Source of the DNA: a virus
DNA: 43,435 nt
Virus record (IMG/VR): IMGVR_UViG_3300005288_000020
Coordinates: 132 to 43,566 of that record
Direction: 5' to 3' (one strand)
The position numbers and the translations under genes are program-made. Below, piece after piece: positions 5,984 through 41,491 of the stretch; position 1 is the stretch's first letter; every line of letters starts with the position of its first letter. The notes under the pieces were generated by a model. It worked only from the letters and a program-made list of their open reading frames with translations, did not search any database and was not told where the DNA came from.

Positions 5984-6012
5984 ATCGTATGACACTCTGA
6001 CGAGGTCGTCAA
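5984..6012 (-). promoter_or_regulatory. Leftward promoter with embedded dyad operator (site 1)
   Basis: Read leftward: TTGACG at 6012-6007, a 17-base spacer, TACGAT at 5989-5984. The dyad TGACGAGGTCGTCA spans the -35 box and the first bases of the spacer. It drives the small-gene cassette 5951-5078. Same architecture as the other sites in this window. Confidence 0.75.
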
Positions 6013-6018
6013 CACTCA

Positions 6019-6585
6019 TCACGCAGCCTGGGGAACCAATATGAGTTCAGGTGGTGCGAATCGGAGGAACCGCTGCATCACCATGCGCACCTCACGCTCC
6101 ATCTCCTGCTGATGATCGGTGGGGATCTTCTCAGCGAGTAGCATCGCGTCGTGCCACAGGGCGCCTATGAGGCTGTCAGGGCCTTTGACATCCACGCCTT
6201 CCATCTCAGGGCGCGACGGTGCTGGCGGCTCGGCATGCTTGCGCTGTATCGCCGCTGCACGTATCTCACGGATGGTGGTGCGCATCGCCCCGACCGTCTC
6301 GAACGACAGTACGTCCAGTTTCAGGCGGTAAGCCGCACGGAACGTCGACACGTACAGCTTCACTGCGTCGGGTGCTGGCTTCTCTTTCGAGTCTGCAACG
6401 GGTCGCCCCGCCGTCTGACTCCACCCGTTTGTTTTGAACGCGTCACGGGTCAGCTCGTTGAAGTGATCCAGGGTTTTCACGTCCTCAGACTTGAGCGTCG
6501 AGAACATCCCGTTTGCGGCGCTTTCTACGCCTTTCGCTTTACGGGCAATGTTGATGAAGTCCGCTGCTAATGTGTTCATTTTCAC
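6019..6585 (-). CDS. Hypothetical 188-residue helical protein
   Basis: A mostly helical, soluble protein. GGAG lies eight bases before the first ATG; a second ATG two codons later is also possible. It contains MFSTLKSEDVKTLDHFNELT near residue 27, a Pro/Glu-rich linker around residues 115-130, and a helical C-terminus with QEMEREVRMVMQRFLRF. It is transcribed alone from the dyad promoter at 6657-6685, and site 1 follows six bases after its stop. The family is not recognised. It may be an early host-takeover protein given its promoter class. Confidence 0.7.
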   Translation of the reverse strand: MKMNTLAADFINIARKAKGVESAANGMFSTLKSEDVKTLDHFNELTRDAFKTNGWSQTAGRPVADSKEKPAPDAVKLYVSTFRAAYRLKLDVLSFETVGAMRTTIREIRAAAIQRKHAEPPAPSRPEMEGVDVKGPDSLIGALWHDAMLLAEKIPTDHQQEMEREVRMVMQRFLRFAPPELILVPQAA

Positions 6586-6656
6586 TACTCCAAATTATTA
6601 GATTGGGTAGCGTCCGTGCACTTGGTTGATCCCCTGCTGTCGGTTTCGACACTTTC

Positions 6657-6685
6657 AGTATGGTTCACGATGACGAAGCCGTCAA
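6657..6685 (-). promoter_or_regulatory. Leftward promoter with embedded dyad operator (site 2)
   Basis: Leftward TTGACG (6685-6680), 17-base spacer, CATACT (6662-6657). The dyad TGACGAAGCCGTCA overlaps the -35 box. The transcript would have a leader of about 65 bases before the gene starting at 6585. Confidence 0.7.
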
Positions 6686-6849
6686 AGCCGTTCGTCGGGA
6701 CAAGAGTGACCAGAACCGTATAAATAGTCACGAAACGCCCAGTGTAATTTTTGGGTCATTGAAATGAAGGTGACTAACAAGTCACCGTGCGACCACATTG
6801 GCGTCATCGGTCACGGAATGTCTTTTCTAGGCTTACCGGTGCTGAAACC

Positions 6850-7106
6850 ATACCCCGTACCCCGGAACTCGCAAACTATCCGGGGTACGATTCTAGCGCT
6901 CTAGCTCGCGGGTTTGAGGGGTGTTACCCGAATACCCCGCATCGATCTCACTCTCACGCTGCTGGCTATATACTGTATTACATATATATCATTCCTATTC
7001 TAATATTATTTATTAAGGGTATCGGGGTATAAAATAAAAAGAGGTGTCTATTCCGGTACTCTCAGCGATACCCCGAATGTCTACCCCGTATGGAATTACC
7101 GGGGTA
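6850..7106. repeat. TACCCCG iteron/hairpin element, copy 1 (in 559-base non-coding gap)
   Basis: The gap 6586-7144 has no supportable gene. It holds eight copies of TACCCCG in both orientations (6851, 6858, 6881, 6933, 7023, 7069, 7082, 7100). Three blocks are identical or nearly so to DNA at 43214-43414: 6850-6887 (38 bases identical, containing an 8-bp hairpin TACCCCGG/CCGGGGTA), 6924-6939, and 7000-7036 (37 bases identical, ending GGGGTATAAAATA). Blocks 1 and 2 are separated by 36 bases in both copies, and that spacer differs in sequence yet each version can form a short hairpin. The middle is AT-rich. It could be an origin, a protein-binding array or a promoter (TATAAAAT at 7028). Confidence 0.8.
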
Positions 7107-7144
7107 AGGATTGTCACGACATCCATTGTGGTATTATTCGACTC

Positions 7145-7627
7145 ATGCCTATCACCCTGAAAACCGTTGACTTCCAACGGGCCGTCGACACGCTGAAAAC
7201 GGAACTGAAAAAGTTTCGCGGAGGCAAGTACGCGCTTGTCGGGATTCACGAGGATGCAGGGAAAGTCGAGGGTGAACAGATGACCGAGGCTGAACTCGGC
7301 GCGCTTCAACATTTTGGCACCGATGGACCGCCCAAGATTCCCGCCCGCCCCTGGCTCGATGTGGGGGTACAGTCTGGTACGGTTGAGGTGATCGATTACG
7401 TTCGTGACCAGATTGGTCAAGGTGCAAACCTCGACACTGTCATCGAGGGTGTCGGCATCCTGGCGGCTGGGGCGACTCAGCAGTACATCACGGACCTGAA
7501 GACACCGCCCAACGCACCGTATACAATCGCCAAGAAGGGATCGGATAACCCACTTTTGGACACGGGAAGAATGCGCTCGTCCGTCACATCTACGATCACC
7601 GACGAAAAACCGACAGAGGGGTTATAA
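7145..7627 (+). CDS. Neck/tail completion protein (HK97 gp10-like)
   Basis: A 160-residue protein with the pattern of gp10-like/virion morphogenesis proteins: GKYALVGIHEDAG near residue 27, ELGALQHFGTDGPPKIPARP around residue 50, and near the end NPLLDTGRMRSSV. The PPKIPARPW and LLDTGRMRxS motifs are hallmarks. These proteins form the head-tail interface and stop the tail. It starts the long late rightward operon; TATTAT just upstream may be its -10. Confidence 0.8.
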   Translation: MPITLKTVDFQRAVDTLKTELKKFRGGKYALVGIHEDAGKVEGEQMTEAELGALQHFGTDGPPKIPARPWLDVGVQSGTVEVIDYVRDQIGQGANLDTVIEGVGILAAGATQQYITDLKTPPNAPYTIAKKGSDNPLLDTGRMRSSVTSTITDEKPTEGL

Positions 7628-7628
7628 C

Positions 7629-7988: not shown

Positions 7989-7990
7989 CA

Positions 7991-8920
7991 ATGCCAGCCA
8001 GAACCCCAAAACACATTCGTGAAAAGCAGATGACCGAACTCGCATCTGCCGACGGTTATACGTTCGTTAGTTGGGGCGCCGAATACACCGGTAACCTCAC
8101 GAAGGTCGTAGTCAACTGTAAGATCCACGGTGACTGGACCACAAAACTTTCATACTTCACTGACATGAAGACACGTTGCCCGGGCTGTGCGATACAGCTT
8201 CGTCGCGTAGATGTGAACGTAGTCAGATCTGATATCGTTGAGTCATGCACGAAAACGGGTTACGAGTTTTTAGGATTTGTTGACGGTTACGTGAACAATG
8301 CGTCCAAGGTGAAACTTCGTTGTCGGTCACACGGTGAATGGAAAGCCACTGTTGCGCATGTGCTACACAATGCGACGGGGTGTCCTGTGTGCGGTGGTAC
8401 ACAGAAACTATTAGAGTACGACGTGATAACCCGCATCGGAGAGGTGGGGTCGCAGAAAGGATTCGTTTTCGCAGGGTGGGTTGACCGTCACGAGAATAAT
8501 TCAAGCAAGGCACGTTTACTTTGTGTTGACCATGGTGAGTGGTCAGCAGTCGTTGAGAGCATCATTCACCAAAAATCAGGATGTCCGAAGTGTGCAGTAT
8601 TTGGGTTCGTGCCGTCGAAAAGTGGGACGCTATATGCATTGCGATCCATTGATGGCGAGCACCTCAAGGTCGGAATATCCAACAAGTTTAACCAGCGACT
8701 TGCGCAGCTACAGAAACGAACACCTTTCGAGTTCGAAGTCCTACGTGGATTAAAGTTTACAAACGGTGGTGATGCGATGGCTGCCGAACAGGTGATTCAC
8801 AAAACGTTCCCGTCTGCGGGACTGGTCGGGTTCGACGGCTGCACCGAATGGTTAAAGTGGTCGCCAGATGTGATAACATGGATCGACTTGTTTTCGGGTG
8901 GTGCCTGTAATGACCAATGA
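7991..8920 (+). CDS. Homing-type endonuclease: zinc-finger (CapR-like) repeats plus GIY-YIG-like domain
   Basis: A 309-residue protein. Three tandem ~65-residue repeats each have the pattern GYxFxGxxxxYxNxxxKxxxxC-x2-HG[ED]W...CPxC, expected to bind zinc and DNA. A C-terminal nuclease-like domain begins GTLYALRSIDGEHLKVGISN, with RLAQLQKRTPFEFEVL and AAEQVIHKTFPSAGL following, matching GIY-YIG-type domains (TLYAL for GIY, KVGIS for YIG, R and E conserved). It splits the neck gene from the tail terminator gene, whose start lies within its last 11 bases. A longer relative is at 35567-36718. Codon use is more AT-rich than its neighbours. Confidence 0.82.
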   Translation: MPARTPKHIREKQMTELASADGYTFVSWGAEYTGNLTKVVVNCKIHGDWTTKLSYFTDMKTRCPGCAIQLRRVDVNVVRSDIVESCTKTGYEFLGFVDGYVNNASKVKLRCRSHGEWKATVAHVLHNATGCPVCGGTQKLLEYDVITRIGEVGSQKGFVFAGWVDRHENNSSKARLLCVDHGEWSAVVESIIHQKSGCPKCAVFGFVPSKSGTLYALRSIDGEHLKVGISNKFNQRLAQLQKRTPFEFEVLRGLKFTNGGDAMAAEQVIHKTFPSAGLVGFDGCTEWLKWSPDVITWIDLFSGGACNDQ

Positions 8921-15519: not shown

Positions 15520-15653
15520 TTGCTATCCCTCCGTGCCCGAGTCCACCCATCGATCCACTTGTTCGCTGACCACGGGGTCGTATCACCGAATGGGTTTGCG
15601 TCCTTCGACTTGCCGCCCAGGAACGCCGCGTAACCTTGCTCGAATGGTGTCAT
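15516..15653 (-). CDS. Ribosome modulation factor-like (RMF/CrpP-like) small protein, second copy
   Basis: A 45-residue protein starting MTPFEQGYAAFLGGKSKDAN and ending with NKWIDGWTRARRD. It keeps the [EQ]G[WY]xAFxxG ... [KR]W[IR]xGWxxA layout of RMF-like proteins and pairs with the protein at 5543-5680, though sequence identity is low. Start and stop are both shared (ATGA) with neighbouring genes. A role in host ribosome control is inferred only. Confidence 0.62.
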   Translation of the reverse strand: MTPFEQGYAAFLGGKSKDANPFGDTTPWSANKWIDGWTRARRDSK

Positions 15654-15820
15654 TTGGCACGCTCAAAAGTGAAGGTGTAGGTCACGGTACCGAGGGGTCG
15701 TTCACCTTTATTATCTTCGACGCGCACCGATACCTCACCATTTGCACCGGCATCTTCAATAGCTTTTTCGATCATTTCTTTTGCCTGATCGACAGTAAGT
15801 TTGTTCAGTTCGATAATCAT
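15650..15820 (-). CDS. Hypothetical 56-residue acidic protein, first gene of second leftward cassette
   Basis: Starts MIIELNKLTVDQAKEMIEKA, an amphipathic helix, followed by two strands (VSVRVEDNKGERPLG and VTYTFTFERAK). AGAGGA lies ~9 bases before the ATG. It is transcribed leftward from site 3 (15847-15875) against the surrounding late genes. Clear codon structure and coupling to the next gene support it; function unknown. Confidence 0.7.
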   Translation of the reverse strand: MIIELNKLTVDQAKEMIEKAIEDAGANGEVSVRVEDNKGERPLGTVTYTFTFERAK

Positions 15821-15846: not shown

Positions 15847-15875
15847 CACTGTATCACTCGTGACGAATCCGTCAA
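15847..15875 (-). promoter_or_regulatory. Leftward promoter with embedded dyad operator (site 3)
   Basis: Leftward TTGACG (15875-15870) and TACAGT (15853-15848, 16-base spacer). Dyad TGACGAATCCGTCA overlaps the -35 box. Drives the three-gene cassette 15820-15382. Confidence 0.72.
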
Positions 15876-15908: not shown

Positions 15909-15954
15909 AACACATCAACACAAGCAGGGAGGTTGCACAGTCGCATTTAATGAC

Positions 15955-15983
15955 GTGACTGTCAAGCGTGCGCAATGTATTAT
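15955..15983 (+). promoter_or_regulatory. Rightward promoter for the second half of the baseplate genes
   Basis: GTGACT (15955-15960), 17-base spacer, TATTAT (15978-15983); the gene starts at 16011. A degenerate dyad-like ATGACGTGACTGTCA overlaps the -35 region. It may restart late transcription after the inserted leftward cassette. Confidence 0.5.
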
Positions 15984-24321: not shown

Positions 24322-24350
24322 ATTGTCGCTCAACGTGACGAGCCCGTCAA
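24322..24350 (-). promoter_or_regulatory. Leftward promoter with embedded dyad operator (site 4)
   Basis: Leftward TTGACG (24350-24345), 17-base spacer, GACAAT (24327-24322). Dyad TGACGAGCCCGTCA. It lies in the last codons and just past the stop of the DNA polymerase gene, so the Ibr-like operon has its own control. Confidence 0.73.
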
Positions 24351-26474
24351 CAACGGGTTGACTAGCTTTTCAGCCTCGACGATGTACCACTCGTAATTCA
24401 GATCCGACCAGTCGAAGTGACGCGCATCGGCACACTCTGTGACGAGCCAGTCCTTGCATATACCCGTCTCTCGCGTTTCATGCTTGCTGCGATTGCCCGT
24501 GTGGATTCGTGCGTCCCATGGCGTCCCAGCGCTGTCGAGGTCACCGGGTTGACCCGCGATCTCACGCATCACGGCGTTGAAATTCGAGTCGGTCAACTTC
24601 GCTTTACGCTTCCACGTCCCAGGCTCGTCTGTCGGTGGTGCGACCTTCACGAGTGTTCCACCGTTGCGGCTGACGAAATAACGGGTTGTCCCCTGCAACT
24701 GTTGATCGATACCCCAGTCCTTGAAACGCAGGTGAAGCGAGTTCGACCTTGGCACCTTGGCGCGACACATGAAGTCGAACGGGTCACGGTGATTGGTGAT
24801 GAACTCACGTACTGATTCGCCGCGCACCAACGCCGCTTCAGCCGCCCGGGCCACTACTTGTGCCGACGGGTCTTGGTGCCACAGGGTGTTGTACTCGTAT
24901 GCACCTTTGCGCTTGAGCTTACCGCCCTCGTATTCAGCTATGTACGAGTTCACGTCGCGGATGATCATGCGGCTATACAGTGCGTATTCGAGGTTCAGTT
25001 GCGTCACACCCTCCCACCACTTGCACACACTGTAGAAATGCGCCTCGAACGACCGTGGGATGCGCACGGTGAGGCCGTCAGTGTTGCACTGAATCATCGT
25101 CATGTTCGGGATCTTGACGAGCTGTTCAGCGAGCATACATAGCGACAATTGACCGTTGATCGTGGTCGCCATCGTGTAATACGGATCGAACAGGCAACTG
25201 AATTTATTGTTCGAATTACCGTATGACGCGTTCAGCGATTCCTTGAGTGCAGCGTTTTCGGGTGTACCCTTTGCGAAGGTTGCCCGTTGCAGGAATACCC
25301 CGTTGTAACTATCGCAGTACGCTTCACCCAGGTGCGCGGGGTACAGACGATTGACGATTGCCATTTTCGGGTAGAACGACGTCACATCGGCGTCGATGAT
25401 CATGTATTCGTCGTCAGACCTCACGATCTGTGAAACGATAGACCCGTGGATTCCCCCGAGACCGAATACATAATCGAACCCGTCGATGGTCGCCTCGATG
25501 TTGGCGAATGCACCTTTCGTCTTGACCTCTTCACCCATGTCGGTTCGACGTAGTGTTTTCGCTTTGAACTGTTCAACGACTTGAATGAATTCGGGACGTT
25601 CGAACTTGACATACGGGAAAATCACGTCGCCGAGGTTGATACTGTCGCGGTACGTTTGGCGGGGGTGCTTGCCGCCCGGACCACGGTCGAAGCACACGAT
25701 GCCGGACGCTTCCATCTCCTTGGTGAGAATCGTCGCGCCGATCTTGGTGTTGCTCATGTTCATCATGCGAGTTTCGTAACGCTTCGACAGCGCCTCACGC
25801 AGATGCACCTCGGGAAGAATCCGAACGTAGAATTTCAGGGTTTCGCGAACGTCGTGTTTGTTGTACGTGATCAACTCGTCGATCTGGTCGTCGCGTAGTG
25901 GAATGCCGACGGGGAACGGTAGGTCGATCACGTTGCGCGAGCGCATGACGATCTCAAGCGCCTTGAGGCTGGTACGCTTGTTGTTGTTATCGAAGTGGCA
26001 GATCTTCATCGGGTCGAGTTGTTCGAAGACGTGGTCGCTTTCCCGAATCGTCATACCGAACCGGTCGGCATCGCTCGCCTTGAGGATTTTCATCGCGTGG
26101 GCGTATATCTGCCCCCCTGTGGCGTTAGGGTTCGCGACGAGCCAATGAATGATCGGATAGTCAAACCCCAGGTTGTTGTACCCGATACCACGTGCTTTGC
26201 TTCGACCCAGTCCGAGTACGAATTCGATCAGCTCGGCGACTTGATTGCGACGGTCGGAAATCTCGAACACGACCTCAAGCCCGGTCGCTGCGTGGATAAA
26301 CGATGCTGTGATTACATTGGGGTAAGTTTCCAAATCCCAGCCCCAATCGCGTGGATCGAGCGGTGCAGCAACGCTGAACGCTTCAGGTGTGCCACAGTGG
26401 GGGCATTTGTCGAGGTCGGCGGGGTATGTTTTGCCGCAGCCATTGATAGGCTCGCAGCGGCTCAGTAATCGCAT
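24330..26474 (-). CDS. Family B DNA polymerase with proofreading exonuclease
   Basis: A 714-residue replicative polymerase. An N-terminal zinc-ribbon (CEPINGCG ... CPHC) precedes the exonuclease: ExoI WDLETYPN (~residue 47), ExoII GYNNLGFDYP, ExoIII YNKHDVRET. Polymerase motif A is DADVTSFYPKM, motif B KESLNASYGN, motif C QCNTDGL, which has Asn where most enzymes have Asp before TD. A C-terminal module from ~residue 650, GTPWDARIHTGN, is shared with the protein at 29914-30933. No protein-priming TPR insertions were recognised. It follows a terminator, so its transcript likely starts nearby or reads through. Confidence 0.88.
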   Translation of the reverse strand: MRLLSRCEPINGCGKTYPADLDKCPHCGTPEAFSVAAPLDPRDWGWDLETYPNVITASFIHAATGLEVVFEISDRRNQVAELIEFVLGLGRSKARGIGYNNLGFDYPIIHWLVANPNATGGQIYAHAMKILKASDADRFGMTIRESDHVFEQLDPMKICHFDNNNKRTSLKALEIVMRSRNVIDLPFPVGIPLRDDQIDELITYNKHDVRETLKFYVRILPEVHLREALSKRYETRMMNMSNTKIGATILTKEMEASGIVCFDRGPGGKHPRQTYRDSINLGDVIFPYVKFERPEFIQVVEQFKAKTLRRTDMGEEVKTKGAFANIEATIDGFDYVFGLGGIHGSIVSQIVRSDDEYMIIDADVTSFYPKMAIVNRLYPAHLGEAYCDSYNGVFLQRATFAKGTPENAALKESLNASYGNSNNKFSCLFDPYYTMATTINGQLSLCMLAEQLVKIPNMTMIQCNTDGLTVRIPRSFEAHFYSVCKWWEGVTQLNLEYALYSRMIIRDVNSYIAEYEGGKLKRKGAYEYNTLWHQDPSAQVVARAAEAALVRGESVREFITNHRDPFDFMCRAKVPRSNSLHLRFKDWGIDQQLQGTTRYFVSRNGGTLVKVAPPTDEPGTWKRKAKLTDSNFNAVMREIAGQPGDLDSAGTPWDARIHTGNRSKHETRETGICKDWLVTECADARHFDWSDLNYEWYIVEAEKLVNPLLTGSSR

Positions 26475-26491
26475 GTCGTTCTCCCTGTGTG

Positions 26492-26516
26492 AAAAAGCCC
26501 GGTCTGTGCCGGGCTT
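26492..26516 (-). terminator. Leftward Rho-independent terminator before the polymerase gene
   Basis: On the minus strand AAGCCCGG-N6-CCGGGCTT with TTTTTC following. It ends the transcript of the small gene at 26537-26749 and its upstream partners, 18 bases before the polymerase start. Confidence 0.82.
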
Positions 26517-26536
26517 CGCGTATTGTGACAGATTGG

Positions 26537-26749
26537 TCAGTCCAGCGCACGCAACGAATGTCGGGGATGCGTGAACGACGGGTAATCACCGGTGGAATTG
26601 AACGTGACGCTGACATGCTCGATGCCGGTGTGACGTGAATCATCGCTCGCCAATCCGTAATCACACTTGCGAAACTCGTACACGATCACACCGCGTTTTG
26701 CCATCGGCTCAATCTTGGACTCTTCGAGAATCTCGTATCGTCTGACCAT
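26537..26749 (-). CDS. Hypothetical 70-residue protein
   Basis: Starts MVRRYEILEESKIEPMAKRG; a likely small beta fold (GVIVYEFRKCDYGL, HVSVTFNSTGDYPSF). Start overlaps the exonuclease stop (TAATG). Small replication-associated protein of unknown role. Confidence 0.65.
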   Translation of the reverse strand: MVRRYEILEESKIEPMAKRGVIVYEFRKCDYGLASDDSRHTGIEHVSVTFNSTGDYPSFTHPRHSLRALD

Positions 26750-27276
26750 TACAACGTCACCCCGTAAGTTTTACAGATGTCGATCAGATGCACCGCCTGA
26801 CTCTCGGCGTCATCGACCGCGTTGTGGTGTGTACCGGTCCGGACGAGCTTGACCGACGGATACAACGATTTGATCGTGCGATAGCAGCGGTCGTGCCAGA
26901 ATTTCCAGGGTTGATCGATACCGGTAAGACGATACGCGTTCGACATGATCACGTTGTCGAATGTCGCGCCGTTGCCCCACATACCGGACACTTGGTTTTC
27001 CATACAGAACCACGAGAACAGTCGCAACGCTTCTTCCAGCGGGTCGGCTGACTCGTTACCCTTGAACGCTGCACGGGCCTGTTCGGACTGTTGCAACCAC
27101 CACAGCACCGTCGAGGTGTCCATCACGAGTCCGGCTTTCACGGATGATTCGAGGCTGCATTGCGCGTAAAACTTGGCGTGTACACCGTTGAGATCGAAAG
27201 CCACGGCGCCGATGGCGATGATTGCCGCCTGCGAGCCGTTACCCATTGTCTCGATGTCGAGCATGATATGAGACAT
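26749..27276 (-). CDS. DEDDh 3'-5' exonuclease (Rv2179c/ExoVIII-like)
   Basis: A 175-residue exonuclease with ExoI MLDIETMGNG (residues 5-14), ExoII GNGATFDNVIMSNA (~residue 100) and ExoIII HNAVDDAESQAVHL (~residue 152), giving the D-E-D-D residues and catalytic His. It could trim RNA or DNA 3' ends during replication or host DNA breakdown. TGATG overlap with the gene upstream. Confidence 0.85.
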   Translation of the reverse strand: MSHIMLDIETMGNGSQAAIIAIGAVAFDLNGVHAKFYAQCSLESSVKAGLVMDTSTVLWWLQQSEQARAAFKGNESADPLEEALRLFSWFCMENQVSGMWGNGATFDNVIMSNAYRLTGIDQPWKFWHDRCYRTIKSLYPSVKLVRTGTHHNAVDDAESQAVHLIDICKTYGVTL

Positions 27277-27521: not shown

Positions 27522-28346
27522 TTACGCGACGAGTTTGCAGTGCGAGGTTACCAACGCTTCGTTCCAACCCGGCATCGCGAGCCATTCAGCTTTGGTCAAC
27601 ACGTTGCCGTTGTACTCGTACTTCTCGACGACAGGCGGTGGGGTTACCAGATCGTGAGCTGGTGGCGGCGGTGTAACAGCAGCGGCAACGACAGGTGGTG
27701 GGGTGTGCGTCACTGGCGGCTTGGCTGCGACCGGTGCACCTTCCTGGCTCGTACCACCGTTGACGACCACGCCGCCCTGGATACCAGCGAACTCGACGTC
27801 GGCGTTAAACGCGCCTTCGCTGATGATCTCGATACCCGCCTCGGCGAACATCAGGCCTTCGATGTTCTGGTACATCCCGGCGTTGGTTTTCACGGTTGTT
27901 GCACCGTTGAACTTGGTCGATGCGACGACCCAGAACCAGTCACCTTTTTTCACGGCGGATTTATTCAGGATCGGTTGCTTGTTACCGTCGATCAGCGTGA
28001 CTGGGCCCATCGCCTTGTAGCGTGTGAACTTGATCAACCAGTGACCGGCTGGACGCGACTCGGTGCCGAGTTTGGTCGGATCTTCTGGAGCGTCACAGTC
28101 TTCGATTTTCCAGTTGAAGCCAGCTTGACCGCAGAGCGCGGCGGTGCACTTCGAATCACCCGCTGCCTCGTTGTACATAGTGGACCAGATCGCATCCCAG
28201 GTTGGACCCTTCGGCACTGCGAAACCCATGAACCAGTGATGCTTACCTTCGTCCGGCTGAGGTTTACCCTCGTGGTCGGTGACCTTCAGTTCGAACGGGG
28301 AGCCCATAACCAGACGTGCTTTGAACGGGGTGTACTTGGTAGTCAT
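27522..28346 (-). CDS. Single-stranded DNA-binding protein (DUF2815/Enc34-like)
   Basis: A 274-residue protein. The second of two nearby ATGs (28346) has better spacing from AAGGG; the first (28352) overlaps the upstream stop. The N-terminal ~185 residues (FKARLVMGSPFELKV, then HWFMGFAVPKGPTWDAIW and WLIKFTRYKAMGP) resemble DUF2815 OB-fold ssDNA-binding proteins. A Pro/Val-rich linker (~195-235) and a conserved-looking tail (YNGNVLTKAEWLAMPGWNEA) follow. An internal promoter (site 5) lies ~85 bases upstream, allowing higher expression than the nuclease gene before it. Confidence 0.72.
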   Translation of the reverse strand: MTTKYTPFKARLVMGSPFELKVTDHEGKPQPDEGKHHWFMGFAVPKGPTWDAIWSTMYNEAAGDSKCTAALCGQAGFNWKIEDCDAPEDPTKLGTESRPAGHWLIKFTRYKAMGPVTLIDGNKQPILNKSAVKKGDWFWVVASTKFNGATTVKTNAGMYQNIEGLMFAEAGIEIISEGAFNADVEFAGIQGGVVVNGGTSQEGAPVAAKPPVTHTPPPVVAAAVTPPPPAHDLVTPPPVVEKYEYNGNVLTKAEWLAMPGWNEALVTSHCKLVA

Positions 28347-28351
28347 GCTCA

Positions 28352-29512
28352 TTACCCTTGTGTGTTGAATATCTGACGGATCTTGGCGCCGTCGACCTCG
28401 ACCAGCTTCAGTGCGGTCATTGGTGTCTCACTGTATTCAGCTATGACGGATTCGTCAATACCTTTTTTACGAACTTGTGCCGGTGTATCCATCTCGACAG
28501 GTTTACGAATGTCCACGCCCAGCAGATCACCCATCATGATCACCTCGGCGTGTGGTACGTCTTTCTTCCAACGCTCACGGCCCTTGCCGCGCTCAGTGCT
28601 GAAATACGACACGAGCCCCCCATTACTCAGCTCGTGAATCGCTTGTTCCTCCAGGCCGCTGAGACGGTACTCGATGGCCTTTTGCGCACGACGTAACAGC
28701 TTCAAGTCCACACCGAGGTTGTGCCCCGTCAGCGTGTGGGTTTGAAGCTTACCGGCGAAGTCGATACCATCGTAAGCAACACGACTCAGCGTGTCGCAGT
28801 TCGCCCGGGCGGAACAGTTTTTACACTGTGGTCCCACGGTGCAGGGAGGCGACTCACCCGTCACGACTGGTAATGCTTCGTGCAAGATACGCCAGTAATG
28901 CGCCACGTCTTTGGCGGTGACGAACCATTTACGGATCGGACCGTCACGATGGAATCCACGGGGTTGCACGACACGCAGATCGAGCTTGACGGCGTCTTGT
29001 ACGTAACCCGGGAGGTTCAACCCCTGGATCACACCGAACGCGCCGATCAACAGTTGCCAGTTCTCGAACGGTTCAACCAGTGAATGACCGAATTTTGCAT
29101 CCCACACGACCAGCGTGTTTACCGATGCCTCGTAAACCCACGCGTCGGGGATGCAATACCACCCGGGTAACCAACGGCTGAGATCGACACGCTGCTCAAC
29201 CTTGAGTTCCTTCGACACGAAGTTGAAGTCGCAGAACTTTGCTACGTCATTGACGTATTCGTATGCCGCGTCGAACAGTTCCTGGGTGATCACGATGCCG
29301 TCTTTGCTGAGGCTCCCGACGATGCCGGTAAAGTCCAGAACGCCACCCTTGCGCCAGCGTTCGAGCATCAGTTGAGACGCCTCATGACAAGCGCGACCTT
29401 CGAGTCGTGACTCAGATGGTTCAGACGGTACGCCAGGGTGTGCGGCTCGGGCTTGCGCGCTGCCGAGACACCTCATCCAGTCGTTACTGTCGTGTACGAG
29501 TGGGAGGATCAT
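28352..29512 (-). CDS. DUF2800 PD-(D/E)XK (Cas4/RecB-like) nuclease
   Basis: A 386-residue protein. LEGRACHEASQLMLERWRKG near residue 37 gives the first helix motif; IPDAWVYEASVNTLVVWDAK (~residue 122) provides D and the DxK-like pair of the nuclease core; CTVGPQCKNCSARANCDTL (~residue 225) is a Cys cluster likely to hold iron-sulfur, as in Cas4/AddB-type nucleases. It probably processes DNA ends in recombination or replication. Coupled to its neighbours by ATGA and TAATG overlaps. Confidence 0.82.
   Translation of the reverse strand: MILPLVHDSNDWMRCLGSAQARAAHPGVPSEPSESRLEGRACHEASQLMLERWRKGGVLDFTGIVGSLSKDGIVITQELFDAAYEYVNDVAKFCDFNFVSKELKVEQRVDLSRWLPGWYCIPDAWVYEASVNTLVVWDAKFGHSLVEPFENWQLLIGAFGVIQGLNLPGYVQDAVKLDLRVVQPRGFHRDGPIRKWFVTAKDVAHYWRILHEALPVVTGESPPCTVGPQCKNCSARANCDTLSRVAYDGIDFAGKLQTHTLTGHNLGVDLKLLRRAQKAIEYRLSGLEEQAIHELSNGGLVSYFSTERGKGRERWKKDVPHAEVIMMGDLLGVDIRKPVEMDTPAQVRKKGIDESVIAEYSETPMTALKLVEVDGAKIRQIFNTQG
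28430..28458 (-). promoter_or_regulatory. Internal leftward promoter with dyad operator (site 5)
   Basis: Leftward TTGACG (28458-28453), 17-base spacer, TACAGT (28435-28430), with dyad TGACGGATTCGTCA. It is inside the last ~30 codons of the DUF2800 gene and drives the ssDNA-binding-like gene. Confidence 0.6.
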
Positions 29513-29907
29513 GGTTGCACCTGTTCGACGTATTTATAGACGGCGTAGTTCAGCACACGCTGACCCTCGTGACTGGTGATGCTGCTCTGGCTACCGAGAT
29601 ACGCGTCGATGGTCCAACCTTCTTCAGCTTGAGTAGTCACGAGCCATTCACGAAGAGTCGATTGATCGTAGGTGTCGAGTGGGCAAACAACACGGCGAGG
29701 TTCGCGAACTCGTAATTTCCCGACATGCTCCAAACCTCGAACTTCACCGGTGATCCTCACGTGCGACAAACCGGTGATTAAGTTTGCGTAGTCAATCATT
29801 GACATCGACATGTCGACGAACTGGATATTCGATGCGTCATCCGTCAATGTGACGGTGATCGTGTCGTTACTGCATCGGGAAATACTGATTCGTGCATTGA
29901 TGTGCAT
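29509..29907 (-). CDS. Hypothetical 132-residue protein
   Basis: Starts MHINARISISRCSNDTITVT; beta strands in the first half and helices later (STLREWLVTTQAEEGWTIDA). Overlaps the DUF2800 start by four bases and follows the coiled, Pro-rich protein by six bases. Family not recognised; likely part of the replication/recombination operon. Confidence 0.7.
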   Translation of the reverse strand: MHINARISISRCSNDTITVTLTDDASNIQFVDMSMSMIDYANLITGLSHVRITGEVRGLEHVGKLRVREPRRVVCPLDTYDQSTLREWLVTTQAEEGWTIDAYLGSQSSITSHEGQRVLNYAVYKYVEQVQP

Positions 29908-29913: not shown

Positions 29914-30933
29914 TTACTCCCCGAAAGCGGCTTGGAATTGCACCAGAACTTGTGGAATCAGATCCGCACGCTGACCCAGTTGTTGCAGGGTGGTCAGACC
30001 GTTCGCCGCCAGGATCTCGTTAACCTTGACCACCATCGCAGGTTTCGCCGCTTCGTCTTTCGGGGTGCGACTGGTGAGCCAGGACATCAACTGTGCAAAC
30101 GTTTCGATTGCTGGCTTGTCGACAGTGATCGGCGGCGCCACAGCGGTAACCGGTGGGACGACTACAGGTGGTGCGATGGTTACTGGGGGTGCTACGGCAT
30201 TGAGCGCTGCGACTGCATCACCCACGGTTGCTGTCGGTGGTGGAACACTGCCCTCAACTTCAGTGTAAGAACCCACACCTACGACCACTGTTGGCTCGAC
30301 GACACCCTCAATAATATCTACGAACGCATCGACTTCAGCGTCGGTTAATACCTGCGCTTCCTCAGCCGCCGCATCAGCTACAGCACCGGGCGAGACGGGA
30401 ATCGCCATCAGGTCGGTCAGCTCAGCGGTCACACGGGCCAATGTGGCGTCCCAGTCGGCTTCCTCTATACCTTTAGGACGACGACGCACACGCCACGACC
30501 CGTCGGTGTTGCGCTCACGGCTGCCAGCGTGGATACGCGCGTCCCACGGTAGACCGTTAGTGTCGAGGTTCGTGTCGGTCACGGCGGCGATATTCAGGTC
30601 GCGCTCCTCTTTATCGCTGAGGAACAGTGTGTTGACCGTGACAGGTGGTGTGACGACCACGGGGTCGCCCACCGTTACAGTCACCGGATGTACATCTTCA
30701 ACCTTCACGCCGGTACGCTCGATCAGATCGGCGAGCGCTTCAACAGCCGACGTGGCGTTGGCGGTATCGACGTTGAGGGTTACGGACATTTCGCCGATGG
30801 TGCTGGTTTGACTTGCCGAGGTGTGAACCTCGACCGGTGCTTTATAGCCACGTTCGGCGGCGATCCGCTGAAGCGCTACGGCGATATGGTGCATTTCCAT
30901 GCTGTCAGTGTTGTCATTAATCGTGATGATCAT
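29914..30933 (-). CDS. Hypothetical 339-residue protein with LPWDARIH module
   Basis: First gene of the leftward replication operon. Residues 1-100 look like a compact alpha/beta region. At residue 127 it has GLPWDARIHAGSRERN followed by SWRVRRRPKG, a module often seen in phage replication/recombination proteins and also present at the C-terminus of the polymerase here. A Pro/Val-rich linker (~225-270) leads to a C-terminal helical domain (FAQLMSWLTSRTPKDEAAKP). It may be an adaptor bringing proteins to the fork; this is inference. Confidence 0.72.
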   Translation of the reverse strand: MIITINDNTDSMEMHHIAVALQRIAAERGYKAPVEVHTSASQTSTIGEMSVTLNVDTANATSAVEALADLIERTGVKVEDVHPVTVTVGDPVVVTPPVTVNTLFLSDKEERDLNIAAVTDTNLDTNGLPWDARIHAGSRERNTDGSWRVRRRPKGIEEADWDATLARVTAELTDLMAIPVSPGAVADAAAEEAQVLTDAEVDAFVDIIEGVVEPTVVVGVGSYTEVEGSVPPPTATVGDAVAALNAVAPPVTIAPPVVVPPVTAVAPPITVDKPAIETFAQLMSWLTSRTPKDEAAKPAMVVKVNEILAANGLTTLQQLGQRADLIPQVLVQFQAAFGE

Positions 30934-30974: not shown

Positions 30975-31003
30975 ATCCTATGCGAGTATGACGACGTCGT
31001 CAA
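30975..31003 (-). promoter_or_regulatory. Leftward promoter with dyad operator (site 6), between divergent operons
   Basis: Leftward TTGACG (31003-30998), 17-base spacer, TAGGAT (30980-30975). Dyad TGACGACGTCGTCA is perfect. It drives the leftward replication operon; the operator also sits 20 bases upstream of the rightward gene at 31022, so it could control both. Confidence 0.78.
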
Positions 31004-31021: not shown

Positions 31022-31258
31022 ATGGGAATGCGTGAAGAAATTATCGAGTACATGAATAACGAAAAACTGTCGTGTCGCGGATGGTTCCATACGTGGCGGT
31101 TCAGGTTTCACATACCTTACGAAACCAAACAGATCCGACGCGAACTTGAGAAAATGGAACGCGAAGGTATCGTCACGTCGGATCATGACCAGTCGAATAA
31201 CACCGGTTGGGCACTCGTCAAAACTATTAACACGATCATCGTTTCGGAGGGTGTATGA
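31022..31258 (+). CDS. Small winged-helix-like protein
   Basis: A 78-residue protein (a second ATG two codons in is possible). MREEIIEYMNNEKLSCRGWF, then IPYETKQIRRELEKMEREGI and VTSDHD match a winged helix with recognition helix and wing. As first gene of the rightward early region next to a divergent operator, it may be a regulator. Four-base overlap with the next gene. Confidence 0.68.
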   Translation: MGMREEIIEYMNNEKLSCRGWFHTWRFRFHIPYETKQIRRELEKMEREGIVTSDHDQSNNTGWALVKTINTIIVSEGV

Positions 31259-34534: not shown

Positions 34535-34713
34535 TCAGTCAGGCCGAATGGGAAAAGGCGTGTGAAGAATTCGCCGAGCGTGAACAGAAACGGCGCGATA
34601 ATGCCAAGTGCAAGACATGCTTTGACAGCGGTGTGATCATCGTCGGGTATTCCGGTCTGGAAAGCGACGGTAACGCTCCCGAGTTTGAAGAGTGCGAGGA
34701 CTGTCACGTATGA
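34531..34713 (+). CDS. Small zinc-binding protein
   Basis: A 60-residue protein with a charged helix (EWEKACEEFAEREQKRRDNA) and two CxxC pairs (CKTC ... CEDC) that could bind one zinc. ATGA overlaps at both ends link it to the helicase and the VRR-NUC nuclease. Confidence 0.65.
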   Translation: MISQAEWEKACEEFAEREQKRRDNAKCKTCFDSGVIIVGYSGLESDGNAPEFEECEDCHV

Positions 34714-35189
34714 GTCTCATCGCCTGGGCAGTGAAACATAACGTGAGCCACGCAGCGCTCGCCGAGCTGTACGAGATGTGGGGGATCAATACCGACCCGG
34801 AAACATCGACCGCCAAGCCTGGGAGTGAGGCGGCGGTACAGGCGGCGGTGCGCATGGAGGCGAGTCAGTTGGGTATGCGCCTCTTCAGGAACAATGTGGG
34901 AGCTTGTAAAGACGAGACCGGGCGCGTCATTCGTTACGGTCTGATCAACGATTCGGCGCAGATGAACAAGAAGCTGAAGTCGCCCGACCTCGTGGGGATT
35001 AACCCGGTGCTGATCACACAATCCCACGTGGGACTGATCATCGGTCAGTTCGTCGGACGTGAGATCAAGAAACCCGGGTGGACTTACGCCGGTACGGATC
35101 GCGAGGCGGCACAGCTTGCGTGTGGTCAATTGCTCATGCGCTTCGGGGCTGACTGGAAATTCTGCACCGGACCAGGGTCATTCGATTGA
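34710..35189 (+). CDS. VRR-NUC domain nuclease
   Basis: A 159-residue protein with a helical N-terminus (to ~residue 45) followed by a VRR-NUC core: EASQLGMRLFRNNVGACKDE, then SPDLVGINPV with the acidic residue, and GLIIGQFVGREIKKPGW giving the QxxxREIKK active site. Probably a structure-specific nuclease for replication or recombination. The start codon overlaps the previous stop; a longer start would overlap more. Its TGA overlaps the degenerate operator at 35186. Confidence 0.82.
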   Translation: MSLIAWAVKHNVSHAALAELYEMWGINTDPETSTAKPGSEAAVQAAVRMEASQLGMRLFRNNVGACKDETGRVIRYGLINDSAQMNKKLKSPDLVGINPVLITQSHVGLIIGQFVGREIKKPGWTYAGTDREAAQLACGQLLMRFGADWKFCTGPGSFD

Positions 35190-35234
35190 CGCGCCGGTCA
35201 GCGGGTGACACACTGTCGCCGATGCCAATATATT
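35186..35234 (+). promoter_or_regulatory. Promoter and degenerate operator of the TetR-like gene
   Basis: TTGACGCGCCGGTCA at 35186-35200 resembles the regulon operator with two mismatches. Just downstream GTGACA (35205-35210), 18-base spacer and TATATT (35229-35234) form a fair promoter for the gene at 35252. Consistent with autoregulation, but unproven. Confidence 0.5.
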
Positions 35235-35251: not shown

Positions 35252-35536
35252 ATGAGTCATTTGAAAGACAAGATCCTCGACGCAGCATTTAGCCTCGCGT
35301 GTGAGTGTGGGTATCGCGGTATTCGCCGTGACATGATTGCCGAGCGTGCCGGTGTGGCGGGTGGTACTGTGAACCTCCACTTCCTGACCATGGACAACCT
35401 CAAGGCTGCCATCATGCGGAAAGCCATCGAGTCGGAACAGCTTGACATCCTGGCTGCTGGGATGGCCGAGGGTGATCAGACTGCCATGAAAGCGCCCAAA
35501 GCTTTGAAGGTGCGAGCGCTTCAGACACTTCTGTAG
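35252..35536 (+). CDS. TetR-like DNA-binding regulator
   Basis: A 94-residue protein whose residues 5-50 match a TetR N-terminal domain: KILDAAFSLACECGYRGIRR, then RDMIAERAGVAGGTVNLHF with the helix-turn-helix. It lacks most of the ligand-binding domain of full-length TetR proteins (~200 residues), as seen in short phage TetR-like proteins. TetR dimers bind dyads of this length, so it is the best candidate to bind the TGACG-N4-CGTCA operators. Confidence 0.72.
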   Translation: MSHLKDKILDAAFSLACECGYRGIRRDMIAERAGVAGGTVNLHFLTMDNLKAAIMRKAIESEQLDILAAGMAEGDQTAMKAPKALKVRALQTLL

Positions 35537-35566: not shown

Positions 35567-36718
35567 ATGCCTAGAAAAATCTCGATATCAGATCGGGCTG
35601 AGCAGCTGTCTGCGCTTGCTTTATCTGACGGTTATGAATTTGCGGGTTGGGTTGGTGAGTACAGGAACGCTCATAGCAAAATCACCGTGTGCTGCCCGAA
35701 ACATGGTGAGTGGTCGGTGTCCATCAGTAATTTCGTCAACAATGGTCGTCGATGCCCGCAGTGCGGATTTGATAATAGTGCTGTCAAGCGCCGTATGCAT
35801 CACGATGAATGTAAAGTCAAACTCACTAATCTCGCTTTATCTGACGGCTATGAATTTATAAGTTTCGATGGCGAATATAAGAATAATAAAAGCCGAGCCA
35901 TATTTCATTGCCCGAAACATGGTGAGTGGTCAGTACAAATAAATAGTTTCATTAACCTTGATAGCCGGTGTCGAAAGTGCGCCAATGATGTCAGTTCGGC
36001 TAAGCAGCGTACACCTCGTGACGAGTGTGAAGCGAAAATTGCAGAACTTTCGTTACGTGATGGGTTTACGTTCCTAGGTTGGGTTACTGAGTACACGAAT
36101 GCCCGCAGTCGAGCGCTAATCAGGTGTAAAGACCATGGTGAGTGGTCGATCACCGTAGATCATTTCATCAATGAGGGAGTCCGTTGCCCCGGTTGTGGAT
36201 TTGTCACCATGGCGGCTAAGCAGCGTACACCTCGTGACGAGTGTGAAGCGAAAATTACAGAACTTTCGTTACGTGATGGGTTTACGTTCCTAGGGTTCGA
36301 TGGTGAATATGAGAATGCATATACCACATCGATATTCAACTGTCCGAAACACGGTGAGTGGCGTACCACCGTCAACTCATTCATCAATAGTGGTACGCGG
36401 TGTTCAACATGTTCACCCGGTGGTTACTCCCAGGGGCTAAGGGGGACGCTTTATGCGTTGCTGTCCGATTGTGGAACAATGATTAAGATTGGGATAAGTA
36501 ACCAACCATCCCAACGACACCGTCAACTAGAACGAAAAACACCATTTAAATTCTCAGTCCACCGTGAAATTCACTGTGTTGATGGGTCGATCCCTCCGTC
36601 ATTAGAAAAACTATTTCATTCGCAATTCCCATCCGCCGGGCTGAAGGGTTTCGACGGTGCAACGGAGTGGCGGCAAATGAATCCTGATATCACCACATGG
36701 TTGGAACTTCTGGCATGA
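35567..36718 (+). CDS. Homing-type endonuclease with four zinc-finger repeats and GIY-YIG-like domain
   Basis: A 383-residue relative of the protein at 7991-8920. Four ~72-residue repeats each contain DGYxFxGxxxEYxN...C-x2-HGEWxxxxxxFIN...C-x2-C. The C-terminal domain (GTLYALLSDCGTMIKIGISN, then SQRHRQLERKTPFKFSVHRE and LEKLFHSQFPSAGLKGFDGA) is GIY-YIG-like. Repeats 3 and 4 share 81 nearly identical bases. It lies between the TetR-like gene and the primase, overlapping the primase start by four bases. AT-rich codon use points to transfer. Confidence 0.82.
   Translation: MPRKISISDRAEQLSALALSDGYEFAGWVGEYRNAHSKITVCCPKHGEWSVSISNFVNNGRRCPQCGFDNSAVKRRMHHDECKVKLTNLALSDGYEFISFDGEYKNNKSRAIFHCPKHGEWSVQINSFINLDSRCRKCANDVSSAKQRTPRDECEAKIAELSLRDGFTFLGWVTEYTNARSRALIRCKDHGEWSITVDHFINEGVRCPGCGFVTMAAKQRTPRDECEAKITELSLRDGFTFLGFDGEYENAYTTSIFNCPKHGEWRTTVNSFINSGTRCSTCSPGGYSQGLRGTLYALLSDCGTMIKIGISNQPSQRHRQLERKTPFKFSVHREIHCVDGSIPPSLEKLFHSQFPSAGLKGFDGATEWRQMNPDITTWLELLA
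35998..36294 (+). repeat. 81-base direct repeat within the endonuclease gene
   Basis: Copies at 35998-36078 and 36214-36294 differ at one base and are 216 bases (72 codons) apart. They code for the ends of repeat units 2-3 and 3-4, indicating a recent in-frame duplication of one zinc-finger unit. Confidence 0.88.
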
Positions 36719-39036: not shown

Positions 39037-39096
39037 ACTGGTCCCGTCTAGGTTGAATATGTTGTCTTCCGAAAGGAAAGTGGTGTGCAACACCCG

Positions 39097-39117: not shown

Positions 39118-39129
39118 ATTACCGGGGTA

Positions 39130-39158
39130 TTGACGGACTCGTCAGGATGGCTAATACT
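39130..39158 (+). promoter_or_regulatory. Rightward promoter with dyad operator (site 7)
   Basis: TTGACG (39130-39135), 17-base spacer, AATACT (39153-39158). Dyad TGACGGACTCGTCA. It starts the right-end small-gene operon at 39197. Confidence 0.77.
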
Positions 39159-39196
39159 GGTCATGACATCAATTAACACACGTGGGAGCGGGACTG

Positions 39197-39442
39197 ATGG
39201 CACTGATTAAATTGACGTATTTCAAACCGAGTGGGAAGTATGCGTACGACGGTCAAATGAACTACTCGGACTCACTTCACATGTTTCACCTGTCCGACCA
39301 TATTCAGGATCTGAATCGGACTCACGCGCTACCCGGACTCGGTTCCGGTGTGTGGGAAGGGACTATTCATGTTGACGCTGGTGAGCATCCTCACGGTTAT
39401 CCAATGTTGATCGCGGTCACTTATCCTCACGGTGGGGTATGA
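39197..39442 (+). CDS. Hypothetical 81-residue protein
   Basis: ATG 39197 has GGGAGCGGGA upstream; an earlier GTG is less likely. MALIKLTYFKPSGKYAYDGQ and a His-rich middle (SLHMFHLSDHIQDL), ending with ITVTYPHGGV-like strand. Resembles small phage proteins near early promoters; function unknown. Confidence 0.68.
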   Translation: MALIKLTYFKPSGKYAYDGQMNYSDSLHMFHLSDHIQDLNRTHALPGLGSGVWEGTIHVDAGEHPHGYPMLIAVTYPHGGV

Positions 39443-39588: not shown

Positions 39589-39590
39589 CG

Positions 39591-40176: not shown

Positions 40177-40400
40177 GCACCCACACCAGATGTCGTAAAT
40201 GTGGTGCCCGTAAAGCCCTGGCGCGGTGGCCGACGTCTCGCCGTTGCAAGTGTGGCGGCGAGTATCGACTCGATACGTGGATGAGCTCACGTGTGGCCTG
40301 TAACTGTGATGGGTACTGGTTCATCCACCGTCAAGGCTCGGGACAATGTAACTACAACCCCAACAGGAAGGATTGGCGCGATAATGAAGATCAAACGTGA
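40173..40400 (+). CDS. Zinc-ribbon protein (75 residues)
   Basis: Two zinc-binding pairs near the N-terminus (CRKCGARK ... CKCGGE) and a further CNCDGYWFIHRQGSGQC segment. ATGA overlap upstream. Possibly nucleic-acid or protein binding. Confidence 0.65.
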   Translation: MSTHTRCRKCGARKALARWPTSRRCKCGGEYRLDTWMSSRVACNCDGYWFIHRQGSGQCNYNPNRKDWRDNEDQT

Positions 40401-40590
40401 ACGAATCACCGCCGCTGGCAAACGCGAGGTTGTTGTCGAATTAGACCAAGGTGAAAAACTGATAGGTGTAGAAACCCATGGTCATTATCGACTCGGTGGT
40501 CAGATCGACGATGTTGTCGAATGGCACGTCATGACAGACAGTCGCAAAGTACACTGGTGCCACTTCGAGCAAGCGTGGGTTGATATATGA
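40384..40590 (+). CDS. Hypothetical 68-residue protein
   Basis: Starts MKIKRERITAAGKREVVVEL; beta-rich with EWHVMTDSRKVHWCHFEQAW near the end. Overlaps both neighbours. The ATG at 40384 is chosen as the earliest start that does not cover the preceding gene. Confidence 0.6.
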   Translation: MKIKRERITAAGKREVVVELDQGEKLIGVETHGHYRLGGQIDDVVEWHVMTDSRKVHWCHFEQAWVDI

Positions 40591-40805
40591 CCCAGCACAC
40601 GACGTGTCCTCAGTGCGGGTGTACCGATCTGATACGGTATAGCTCGCTGAATATGAAGCAATGTCCCGACTGTAAAACCGAGATCCCCTGGCACCTATCG
40701 GACGGGCAGAAACCGTTGGTCGGGTCGAACCGTCAGGACCGTAAATTAAATATTGACGTGAATGACGGACTCGTCAATACTCCACACAACCCCAACACGG
40801 AGTAA
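40587..40805 (+). CDS. Zinc-ribbon protein (72 residues)
   Basis: CPQCGCTDLIRYSSLNMKQC followed by PDC forms a four-Cys zinc ribbon; then TEIPWHLSDGQKPLVG, a common ending in small phage zinc-ribbon proteins. The C-terminal part runs over promoter site 8. Confidence 0.68.
   Translation: MTQHTTCPQCGCTDLIRYSSLNMKQCPDCKTEIPWHLSDGQKPLVGSNRQDRKLNIDVNDGLVNTPHNPNTE
40753..40781 (+). promoter_or_regulatory. Rightward promoter with shifted dyad operator (site 8)
   Basis: TTGACG (40753-40758), 17-base spacer, AATACT (40776-40781). Here the dyad TGACGGACTCGTCA (40763-40776) sits between the -35 and -10 boxes, about one helical turn downstream from its place at other sites. Drives the gene at 40811. 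Confidence 0.68.
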
Positions 40806-40810
40806 CGATC

Positions 40811-40999
40811 ATGGCCAAGAAGACCCCGAATACAGCAAAAGCAATCGTATGGACCGAACGTTCCCGCTCAGAAATGGAAGGTCCGACTAACTCAATCATC
40901 TACTACATGTTCATGATGGTCCCGGAAGCGCAACGCGCTCAACTGATTAATGACATGACCGAGTGGCATGCGGGGACTCAAGTCGAGACCGTATCATGA
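40811..40999 (+). CDS. Hypothetical 62-residue protein
   Basis: MAKKTPNTAKAIVWTERSRS..., with a helix IIYYMFMMVPEAQRAQLIND. AACACGGAGTAACGATC provides a ribosome-binding site (GGAG). Overlaps the next gene by four bases. Unknown. Confidence 0.65.
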   Translation: MAKKTPNTAKAIVWTERSRSEMEGPTNSIIYYMFMMVPEAQRAQLINDMTEWHAGTQVETVS

Positions 41000-41427
41000 C
41001 CTGTCGAGCGCGCCGGTATGGCGATCAGTACCACTGCCACGCGTGTGGCTTCCAATGGGATGTAGACGACGAGGATCGACCAATGTGTAAACCTGGGAAC
41101 GCTGTACGTGGCGTGGTGTTCGCGCTGGCTCTCTGTGTGGCTGGTGCTGCCGGTGCCACAGACTGTGATGGTACTCGCGCCGGGGAACTCACACGGCAAA
41201 CTGTGGCGATTGCTGAAGTGTGTCTCGTGACGGTACAGCGGGTTGGTATGAATGTCGGTGGGCAGACTGTCGAATGTCAGGCGTCGCGTGATACGTCGTT
41301 GCTCCAGAACGCTGAGGTGCGGCGCATGGCTGATGCCGGGTGTACGACCTACTACAACGGGCCGAGCATGGCTGACGTTCGTCGCCTGGGTGAGCTGGCG
41401 TTACAGTTTAAAACCGCTCGTCGGTGA
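40996..41427 (+). CDS. Zinc-ribbon peptide fused to (or overlapping) a secreted Cys-rich protein
   Basis: A 143-residue reading. Residues 1-30 (RRYGDQYHCHACGFQWDVDD) match a short phage zinc-ribbon peptide that usually ends here. From residue 30, MCKPGNAVRGVVFALALCVA and AGAAGA look like a complete signal peptide with an AxA site, followed by a domain with four Cys (CDGT, EVCLV, VECQ, AGCTT). An internal ATG at 41083 has GAGG eight bases upstream, so the secreted protein may be made on its own (114 residues). Role unknown; periplasmic. Confidence 0.65.
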   Translation: MTCRARRYGDQYHCHACGFQWDVDDEDRPMCKPGNAVRGVVFALALCVAGAAGATDCDGTRAGELTRQTVAIAEVCLVTVQRVGMNVGGQTVECQASRDTSLLQNAEVRRMADAGCTTYYNGPSMADVRRLGELALQFKTARR

Positions 41428-41430
41428 TTC

Positions 41431-41450
41431 AAGCCCTTCGGGGCTTTTTA
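41431..41450 (+). terminator. Rho-independent terminator
   Basis: AAGCCC-TTCG-GGGCTT followed by TTTATTT. Ends the first block of right-end small genes. Confidence 0.85.
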
Positions 41451-41462
41451 TTTGTCTGCGTA

Positions 41463-41491
41463 TTGACGGTGTCGTCATTAGAGATAATAAT
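41463..41491 (+). promoter_or_regulatory. Rightward promoter with dyad operator (site 9)
   Basis: TTGACG (41463-41468), 17-base spacer, AATAAT (41486-41491); dyad TGACGGTGTCGTCA. Closest match to a sigma70 -10 box among the nine sites. Drives genes from 41522. Confidence 0.8.

Follow-up and report, generated by a model that had tools for sequence, protein, structure and literature searches.

The stretch of DNA analysed here, hereafter the window (43,435 nucleotides; positions 132 to 43,566 of the IMG/VR virus record IMGVR_UViG_3300005288_000020), is nearly the whole of this 43,566-base record. As several IMG/VR relatives with the same TetR gene reach 49-50 kb, the record is probably short by several kb. 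Head, sheath, hub, and baseplate genes read rightward, as do genes for a helicase, a small TetR-like protein (mini-TetR), an endonuclease, and a primase; genes for DNA polymerase, a single-stranded DNA (ssDNA)-annealing protein, and an exonuclease read leftward. Comparison of the polymerase and primase retrieved GenBank relatives that include the Edwardsiella phages MSW-3 and PEi21 and the Klebsiella Jedunavirus phages. Dispersed over the window are promoters with a dyad, TGACG-N4-CGTCA, built into the -35 region. These promoters quite likely form a regulon of early and accessory genes under the control of the phage-encoded mini-TetR, which would repress them together. The predicted promoters and the regulator gene (ORF, open reading frame) are as follows.

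5984-6012, minus strand: early promoter, exact dyad 5998-6011; -10 TACGAT; upstream of ORF 5757-5951
6657-6685, minus strand: early promoter, exact dyad 6671-6684; -10 CATACT; upstream of ORF 6019-6585
15847-15875, minus strand: early promoter, exact dyad 15861-15874; -10 TACAGT, 16 bp spacer; upstream of ORF 15650-15820
24322-24350, minus strand: early promoter, exact dyad 24336-24349; -10 GACAAT; upstream of the gene for a ParB-like protein (start GTG 24293)
28430-28458, minus strand: early promoter, exact dyad 28444-28457; -10 TACAGT; inside the 3'-terminal part of the exonuclease gene, upstream of the gene for ssDNA binding/annealing (27522-28352); retained more widely than any other site
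30975-31003, minus strand: early promoter, exact dyad 30989-31002; -10 TAGGAT; in the gap that separates two divergent operons, for recombination (30933 leftward) and for the helicase (31022 rightward)
35186-35214, plus strand: promoter/operator of the TetR gene itself, tenth site; off-consensus dyad TTGACGcgccGGTCAG, N7, -10 CACACT
35252-35536, plus strand: mini-TetR gene, 94 amino acids, TetR_N helix-turn-helix (HTH); PF00440, phrog_8723
39130-39158, plus strand: early promoter, exact dyad 39131-39144; -10 AATACT; 3' of the primase gene, upstream of ORF 39182-39442
40749-40781, both strands: two overlapping opposed promoters on one exact dyad, 40763-40776; rightward TTGACG 40753/AATACT, leftward TTGACG 40777/AATATT; the rightward gene that follows is 40811-40999
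41463-41491, plus strand: early promoter, exact dyad 41464-41477; -10 AATAAT; upstream of ORF 41522-41734

Nine of these sites, all but that of the TetR gene, had been named in a preliminary description of the window, and direct read-out found all nine at their coordinates and on their strands, each with a -10-like hexamer 16-17 bp from TTGACG. This spacing agrees with the 16-18 bp between the -35 and -10 hexamers of sigma70-type promoters, and the proposed operator is the 14-bp TGACG-N4-CGTCA, located at about -34 to -21, its left half containing the -35 TTGACG. A second half-site at fixed distance had been reported for eight of the nine; an exact dyad is in fact present at all of them, the one at 40753 being displaced by 10 bp and therefore overlapping the spacer and the -10 of the rightward promoter. 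This same dyad (40763-40776) also builds the leftward promoter, TTGACG-N17-AATATT at 40777-40749. The window contains nine exact dyads with the N4 spacer, and at most two copies for any other spacer from 0 to 24. Under a third-order Markov null, 0.21 copies of TGACG-N4-CGTCA were expected, with a maximum of 4 over 1000 runs; similarly, TTGAC-N6-GTCA followed by A...T at 16-18 bp was observed 12 times versus 0.15 expected. The dyad family in the window is real and far above chance.

Lack of conservation of the dyad in related phages had been set beforehand as a possible refutation; instead, dyad and promoter are kept as a unit in distant relatives. The composite recurs, frequently at 10-17 copies per genome, in relatives infecting Klebsiella, Pantoea, Edwardsiella, and Vibrio and, as TTGACA-N4-TGTCA, Acinetobacter. 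When every 5-mer dyad was counted without prior choice, TGACG-N4-CGTCA came out on top in the close IMG/VR relatives. It is present in ten copies each in JD001, ZCEC13, and AAM22, ten in KsaM-C1, and twelve in PEAT2, and in the looser form TTGAC-N6-GTCAA in MSW-3, CP-T1, and L013. In Acinetobacter phage Scuro, both half-sites are altered together (TGACA-N4-TGTCA) and the TetR recognition helix differs as well, the half-site varying by phage. The median -10 score was 3.6 downstream of TTGAC-N6-GTCA (215 sites) versus -3.4 downstream of dyad-less TTGAC (1483 sites), with a p-value of 4e-69 that is indicative only, because near-identical relatives contribute non-independent sites and each palindromic site counts once per strand. 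A set of 61 sites drawn from ten selected genomes agrees with this -10 enrichment and gives the logo GTrTTGACG-nnnn-CGTCA-n8-TAtAnT; a 17 bp spacer was found in 61 of 78 sites. Whole close relatives contain 13-17 promoter-dyads each, versus 0-1 with a reversed-pattern control, and the more distant G008, G009, G011, and G012 contain 1-5 only. Two primase-related phages without a detectable TetR_N had zero promoter-dyads. L017, at first apparently TetR-less, is no control, as its TetR gene was located near the opposite contig end. The seven TTGACN6GTCA copies of RHph_Y52, none of which has a -10, were taken as chance.

The preliminary description had assigned early and accessory genes as targets, and this is borne out by 39 of 43 sites in four annotated relatives. 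Indeed, the 43 sites with an acceptable -10 in JD001, MSW-3, KsaM-C1, and AAM22 precede replication or early genes (22), accessory genes (17, mostly oriented against the late strand), a structural gene (1), or none (3), these classes being the present authors' own, based on the deposited annotation. The single structural assignment concerns a palindromic site, and its strand is therefore ambiguous. Four targets come up repeatedly: the gene for ssDNA annealing, the operon for recombination, the gene following that of the primase, and the TetR gene.

The product of ORF 35252-35536 is likely the protein that binds the dyads, judging from its co-occurrence with them. Three candidate regulators had been put forward; 35252-35536 is kept wherever the motif is, but 31022-31258 and 41999-42304 are absent from distant motif-bearing relatives. 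The latter two, as well as 29509-29907 and 42270-42584, were rejected because they are not conserved together with the motif, leaving 35252-35536 as the sole tested candidate conserved in all motif-bearing relatives. All the motif-bearing relatives examined have a TetR_N homologue, and homologues at E < 1e-3 are encoded by 95 GenBank phages. The protein matches PF00440 (TetR_N) with an E-value of 1.8e-7 (31.2 bits, cut-off 24), and 14 of 15 aligned members have this N-terminal TetR-type HTH match. An AlphaFold2 (AF2) monomer model (predicted local distance difference test score, pLDDT, 92.5) consists of a TetR HTH and a short C-terminal helical part. Its best matches among solved structures are TetR-family chains (Z about 10-12), such as 9ipt (Z 12.2; root-mean-square deviation 1.4 over 83 residues) and 5vl9, EilR bound to its operator (Z 11.6), indicating a TetR-like fold for the DNA-binding part of the predicted model. 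The canonical C-terminal domain for ligand binding and dimerisation (about 120-150 residues) is missing from this 94-residue protein, of which about 35 residues are left after the HTH and the first long helix, and it is therefore called mini-TetR rather than a canonical ligand-sensing regulator. The earlier suggestion of a single dimeric phage protein that lies over the -35 box and governs these genes jointly is supported by the conservation of dyad and promoter as a unit, by the targets, by the two relatives that lack both TetR_N and promoter-dyads, and by the comparison of the candidates; binding, dimerisation, and the sign of control are predictions. Two adjacent TetR_N matches occur in one frame in L016 (G007; 26829-27260, 144 amino acids) and L024 (G011; 26077-26568, 167 amino acids), which may represent a tandem form of the regulator, a 'dimer' within a single chain. 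TetR versions of about 166 amino acids are likewise annotated in Scuro and SppYZU01.

The tenth site (35186-35214, plus strand), directly 5' of ORF 35252-35536, had been missed in the preliminary description. Own sites were searched for as the best fit within 400 bases 5' of where the homology begins (the homology start). A full core (9/9) with a -10 was found at 60-96 nt in the clade of the window, L013, L025, L026, MSW-3, JD001, AAM22, ZCEC13, KsaM-C1, and PEAT2, and an 8/9 core in L022 (60 nt), CP-T1 (96 nt), and L019 (111 nt). For Scuro, SppYZU01, and L016, the distance between own site and homology start is 224-288 nt, but the frame is longer there; the site is about 50-65 nt upstream of the annotated starts of Scuro (21924) and SppYZU01 (38065) and of the first of the two TetR_N matches of L016. 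This upstream search gave no own site for L024. Hence, the own site is conserved in most lineages. A perfect G...C inner pair is present in the own site of one of nine lineages versus 49 of 69 other sites (p = 0.0009). Such an off-consensus site is what weak negative autoregulation would lead one to expect. TetR-family regulators bind palindromic operators that overlap promoters, usually that of their own gene too; palindromic dyads are located at promoters here, the promoter of the mini-TetR gene among them, and would be the binding sites.

In the most likely course of events, each promoter, being near-consensus for the host sigma70, would be fired by the host RNA polymerase upon entry of the phage genome. 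The mini-TetR would be produced from its own promoter with the off-consensus operator, and then accumulate. It would occupy, probably as a dimer, the operator between -35 and -10, blocking the polymerase. Early and accessory genes would thereby be switched off together, the mini-TetR gene last, and transcription would move to the late genes. Repression is proposed because a promoter with a good -35, a good -10, and 17-bp spacing needs no activator, and because the position of the operator suits a steric block. Lytic phages ordinarily express their early genes first and shut them later, and by analogy the same timing would apply here. Taken more widely, there is about an even chance that a TetR scarcely larger than its HTH is the global early switch of this phage family, with an operator that is fused to the promoter and evolves in step with the recognition helix (half-sites TTGACG and TTGACA, possibly TAGCGC, in different members).

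Several points weigh against these proposals. The regulon is predicted from sequence and from a modelled structure, that of a monomer, and a dimer of the 94-residue protein is putative. The link between half-site and recognition helix was drawn from few lineages and is tentative, and the TetR-less control, two relatives, is small. Other sites of MSW-3 and L013 are also often imperfect, which weakens the contrast with the off-consensus own site. Further, AeroV_348, SFCi1, 1.009, CKB-S1, and R9Y2 bear TetR_N, yet no such promoter-dyad or other convincing operator was found in them. Finally, two imperfect dyads, detailed below, are located in the late cluster.

Other explanations share part of the evidence. 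Instead of switching from early to late genes, the mini-TetR may be an immunity or lysogeny-like repressor that silences a phage genome, whether entering or resident. In SPbeta, a single repressor (MrpR) acts in this way on dispersed operators (SPBRE; PMC10516654), and CP-T1 has been recorded as an induced lysogen. However, the gene for the regulator sits amid replication genes and itself bears an operator, and Comeau et al. (PMC3391216) list neither integrase nor cI in phiPLPE, CP-T1, and 138, of which they describe the first and the last as lytic. As to lysogeny in the window, no integrase match was found among the genes scanned, which are part of the ORFs of a record that is apparently several kb short, and a ParB-like protein is present. 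This explanation is considered unlikely. Slightly less likely still is a mini-TetR that binds the dyads but activates, or both activates and represses. The motif, its conservation, and the own site would apply equally to such a binder, and TetR-type activators exist, Vibrio LuxR being described as both activator and repressor (PMC2628434). The considerations given above for a steric block speak against it, as the operator overlaps the -35 and lies between good boxes with a 17-bp spacer; the 40753 dyad, which overlaps the -10, is likewise in a blocking position.

That another host or phage protein binds the dyad, the TetR gene being merely a linked core gene, is improbable. It is true that 34692-35189 and 29914-30933 too are conserved across much of the family; the former is, however, a predicted endonuclease, the latter has no Pfam match, and of the tested genes that are conserved, the TetR_N gene alone encodes a recognised regulator. 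Moreover, the annotated hosts comprise Klebsiella, Edwardsiella, Pantoea, Vibrio, and Acinetobacter, whereas the operator plan is constant and the half-site tracks the phage, and the TetR gene bears its own site. It is highly improbable that conserved sigma70 promoters alone explain the pattern, the second half-site having no regulatory meaning. Although TTGACG and TAtAnT are ordinary promoter hexamers, the fixed-distance CGTCA is no sigma70 element; the window nevertheless has it in nine exact dyads, and the relatives have many copies each. In addition, the Scuro half-sites changed jointly to TGACA/TGTCA. Repression by the mini-TetR is the preferred explanation.

Comparable arrangements exist elsewhere. 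Mycobacteriophage L5 has many dispersed sites, the stoperators, for one repressor. The MotA boxes of T4 place the site of a phage factor in the -35 region of a phage promoter set, where they replace the -35 and activate; the site in the window is also in the -35 region, but the -35 is intact. The repressor of mycobacteriophage L1 (PMC1934351) is similar in having many dispersed sites. In these temperate mycobacteriophages the sites lack symmetry, whereas the present sites are symmetric and inside promoters. As in SPbeta (MrpR/SPBRE; PMC10516654), a single phage repressor and a short motif repeated at about ten promoters would be involved; MrpR, however, is recombinase-like and keeps the prophage silent, whereas here a TetR_N HTH goes with a symmetric operator built into the -35, and no lysogeny genes were found among the genes scanned. 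T7 Gp5.7 (PMC5569994) resembles the mini-TetR as a small phage DNA-binding protein repressing early promoters of the host polymerase, as the mini-TetR would do, but Gp5.7, a winged-helix protein, binds RNA polymerase as well and works at the A1-A3 promoters, whereas the mini-TetR has a predicted TetR fold and would act at some ten dispersed operators.

Homologous small TetR-like genes, near primase/helicase genes in most annotated relatives, occur in Jedunavirus, CP-T1/138, and phiPLPE. Those of phiPLPE, CP-T1, and 138 were described by Comeau et al. (2012; PMC3391216) as of cellular type and possibly co-opted from an osmotic-stress response; the sections cited report no operator or regulon, unlike the present account, which proposes an operator, targets, and autoregulation. 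No operator or regulon for the tetR gene of these phages was found in the open-licence literature, although subscription papers may hold one. The tetR annotation in these phages is thus already known, and the proposed operator, regulon, and autoregulatory site would be new. Jedunavirus and its relatives are being isolated as lytic agents against Klebsiella, and a 'TetR regulator' has been annotated in them for years without a function; the proposed regulon, operator, and autoregulatory site are readable from sequence in many of the about 95 deposited phages. If correct, the mini-TetR would be a minimal TetR working without the canonical ligand domain, and the family would be a natural test of joint change of operator and recognition helix.

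The dyads had been described as absent before the main late operons. This is mostly right, except that two imperfect conserved dyads lie inside the late cluster.

15951-15964: imperfect dyad TGACGTGACTGTCA, between the baseplate hub and spike genes
2798-2811: weak imperfect dyad TGACCATCCTGTCA, 3' of the major head protein gene

The former has a conserved late-strand -10, TATTAT, 17 bp from GTGACT. A dyad is present at the same place in JD001, AAM22, KsaM-C1, ZCEC13, PEAT2, and MSW-3, decayed in the last; the late-strand -10 varies as TATTAT, CATTAT, or TATAAT, 17 bp from a GTGAnT-like -35 (GCGAGT in KsaM-C1). This hub-spike site is possibly a late promoter under the same or related control. 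The position of the weak dyad at 2798-2811 is also kept in relatives. After the major head gene, an ORF that appears HNH-like by eye (2031-2696, minus strand) is present in L049 and L050 and not in L051 and L052; it may be a coming-and-going accessory or homing gene adjoining the conserved weak dyad.

Dyads of another type were encountered in distant TetR_N phages that show no TTGAC-type promoter-dyad. In Pseudoalteromonas phage PY6 (L034), TAGCGC-N4-GCGCTA occurs five times (at 7108, 8015, 12383, 19993, and 28189); by eye, the copies sit in TTGAC-N17-TACACT promoters upstream of genes. As PY6 encodes a divergent TetR_N homologue, this dyad may be the operator of its TetR. The GTCTWC-N4 dyads of Alteromonas phage R9Y2 (L038) were rejected as operators, as they form a regular tandem array with units of about 72 bp within an annotated gene; the array (8006-8670) is built around GTCTACGTCCGAAGAC, and the gene is of unknown function. 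The TCGA-type dyads of 1.009 and CKB-S1 were rejected too, being mostly intragenic and without promoter boxes.

Besides these, the window contains two related HNH/homing-type endonuclease genes (35567-36718 and 7991-8920, plus strand; phrog_681), one of which is inserted between the TetR and primase genes. The C-terminal part of the product of 42581-43018 (plus strand) weakly resembles ribosome modulation factor (PF04957; E-value 0.0011, under the Pfam cut-off). Lastly, a phosphoadenosine phosphosulfate reductase-like gene is located at 21999-23207 (minus strand; phrog_2302), and this function is also annotated in the distant TetR_N phages AeroV_348, SFCi1, and PY6.

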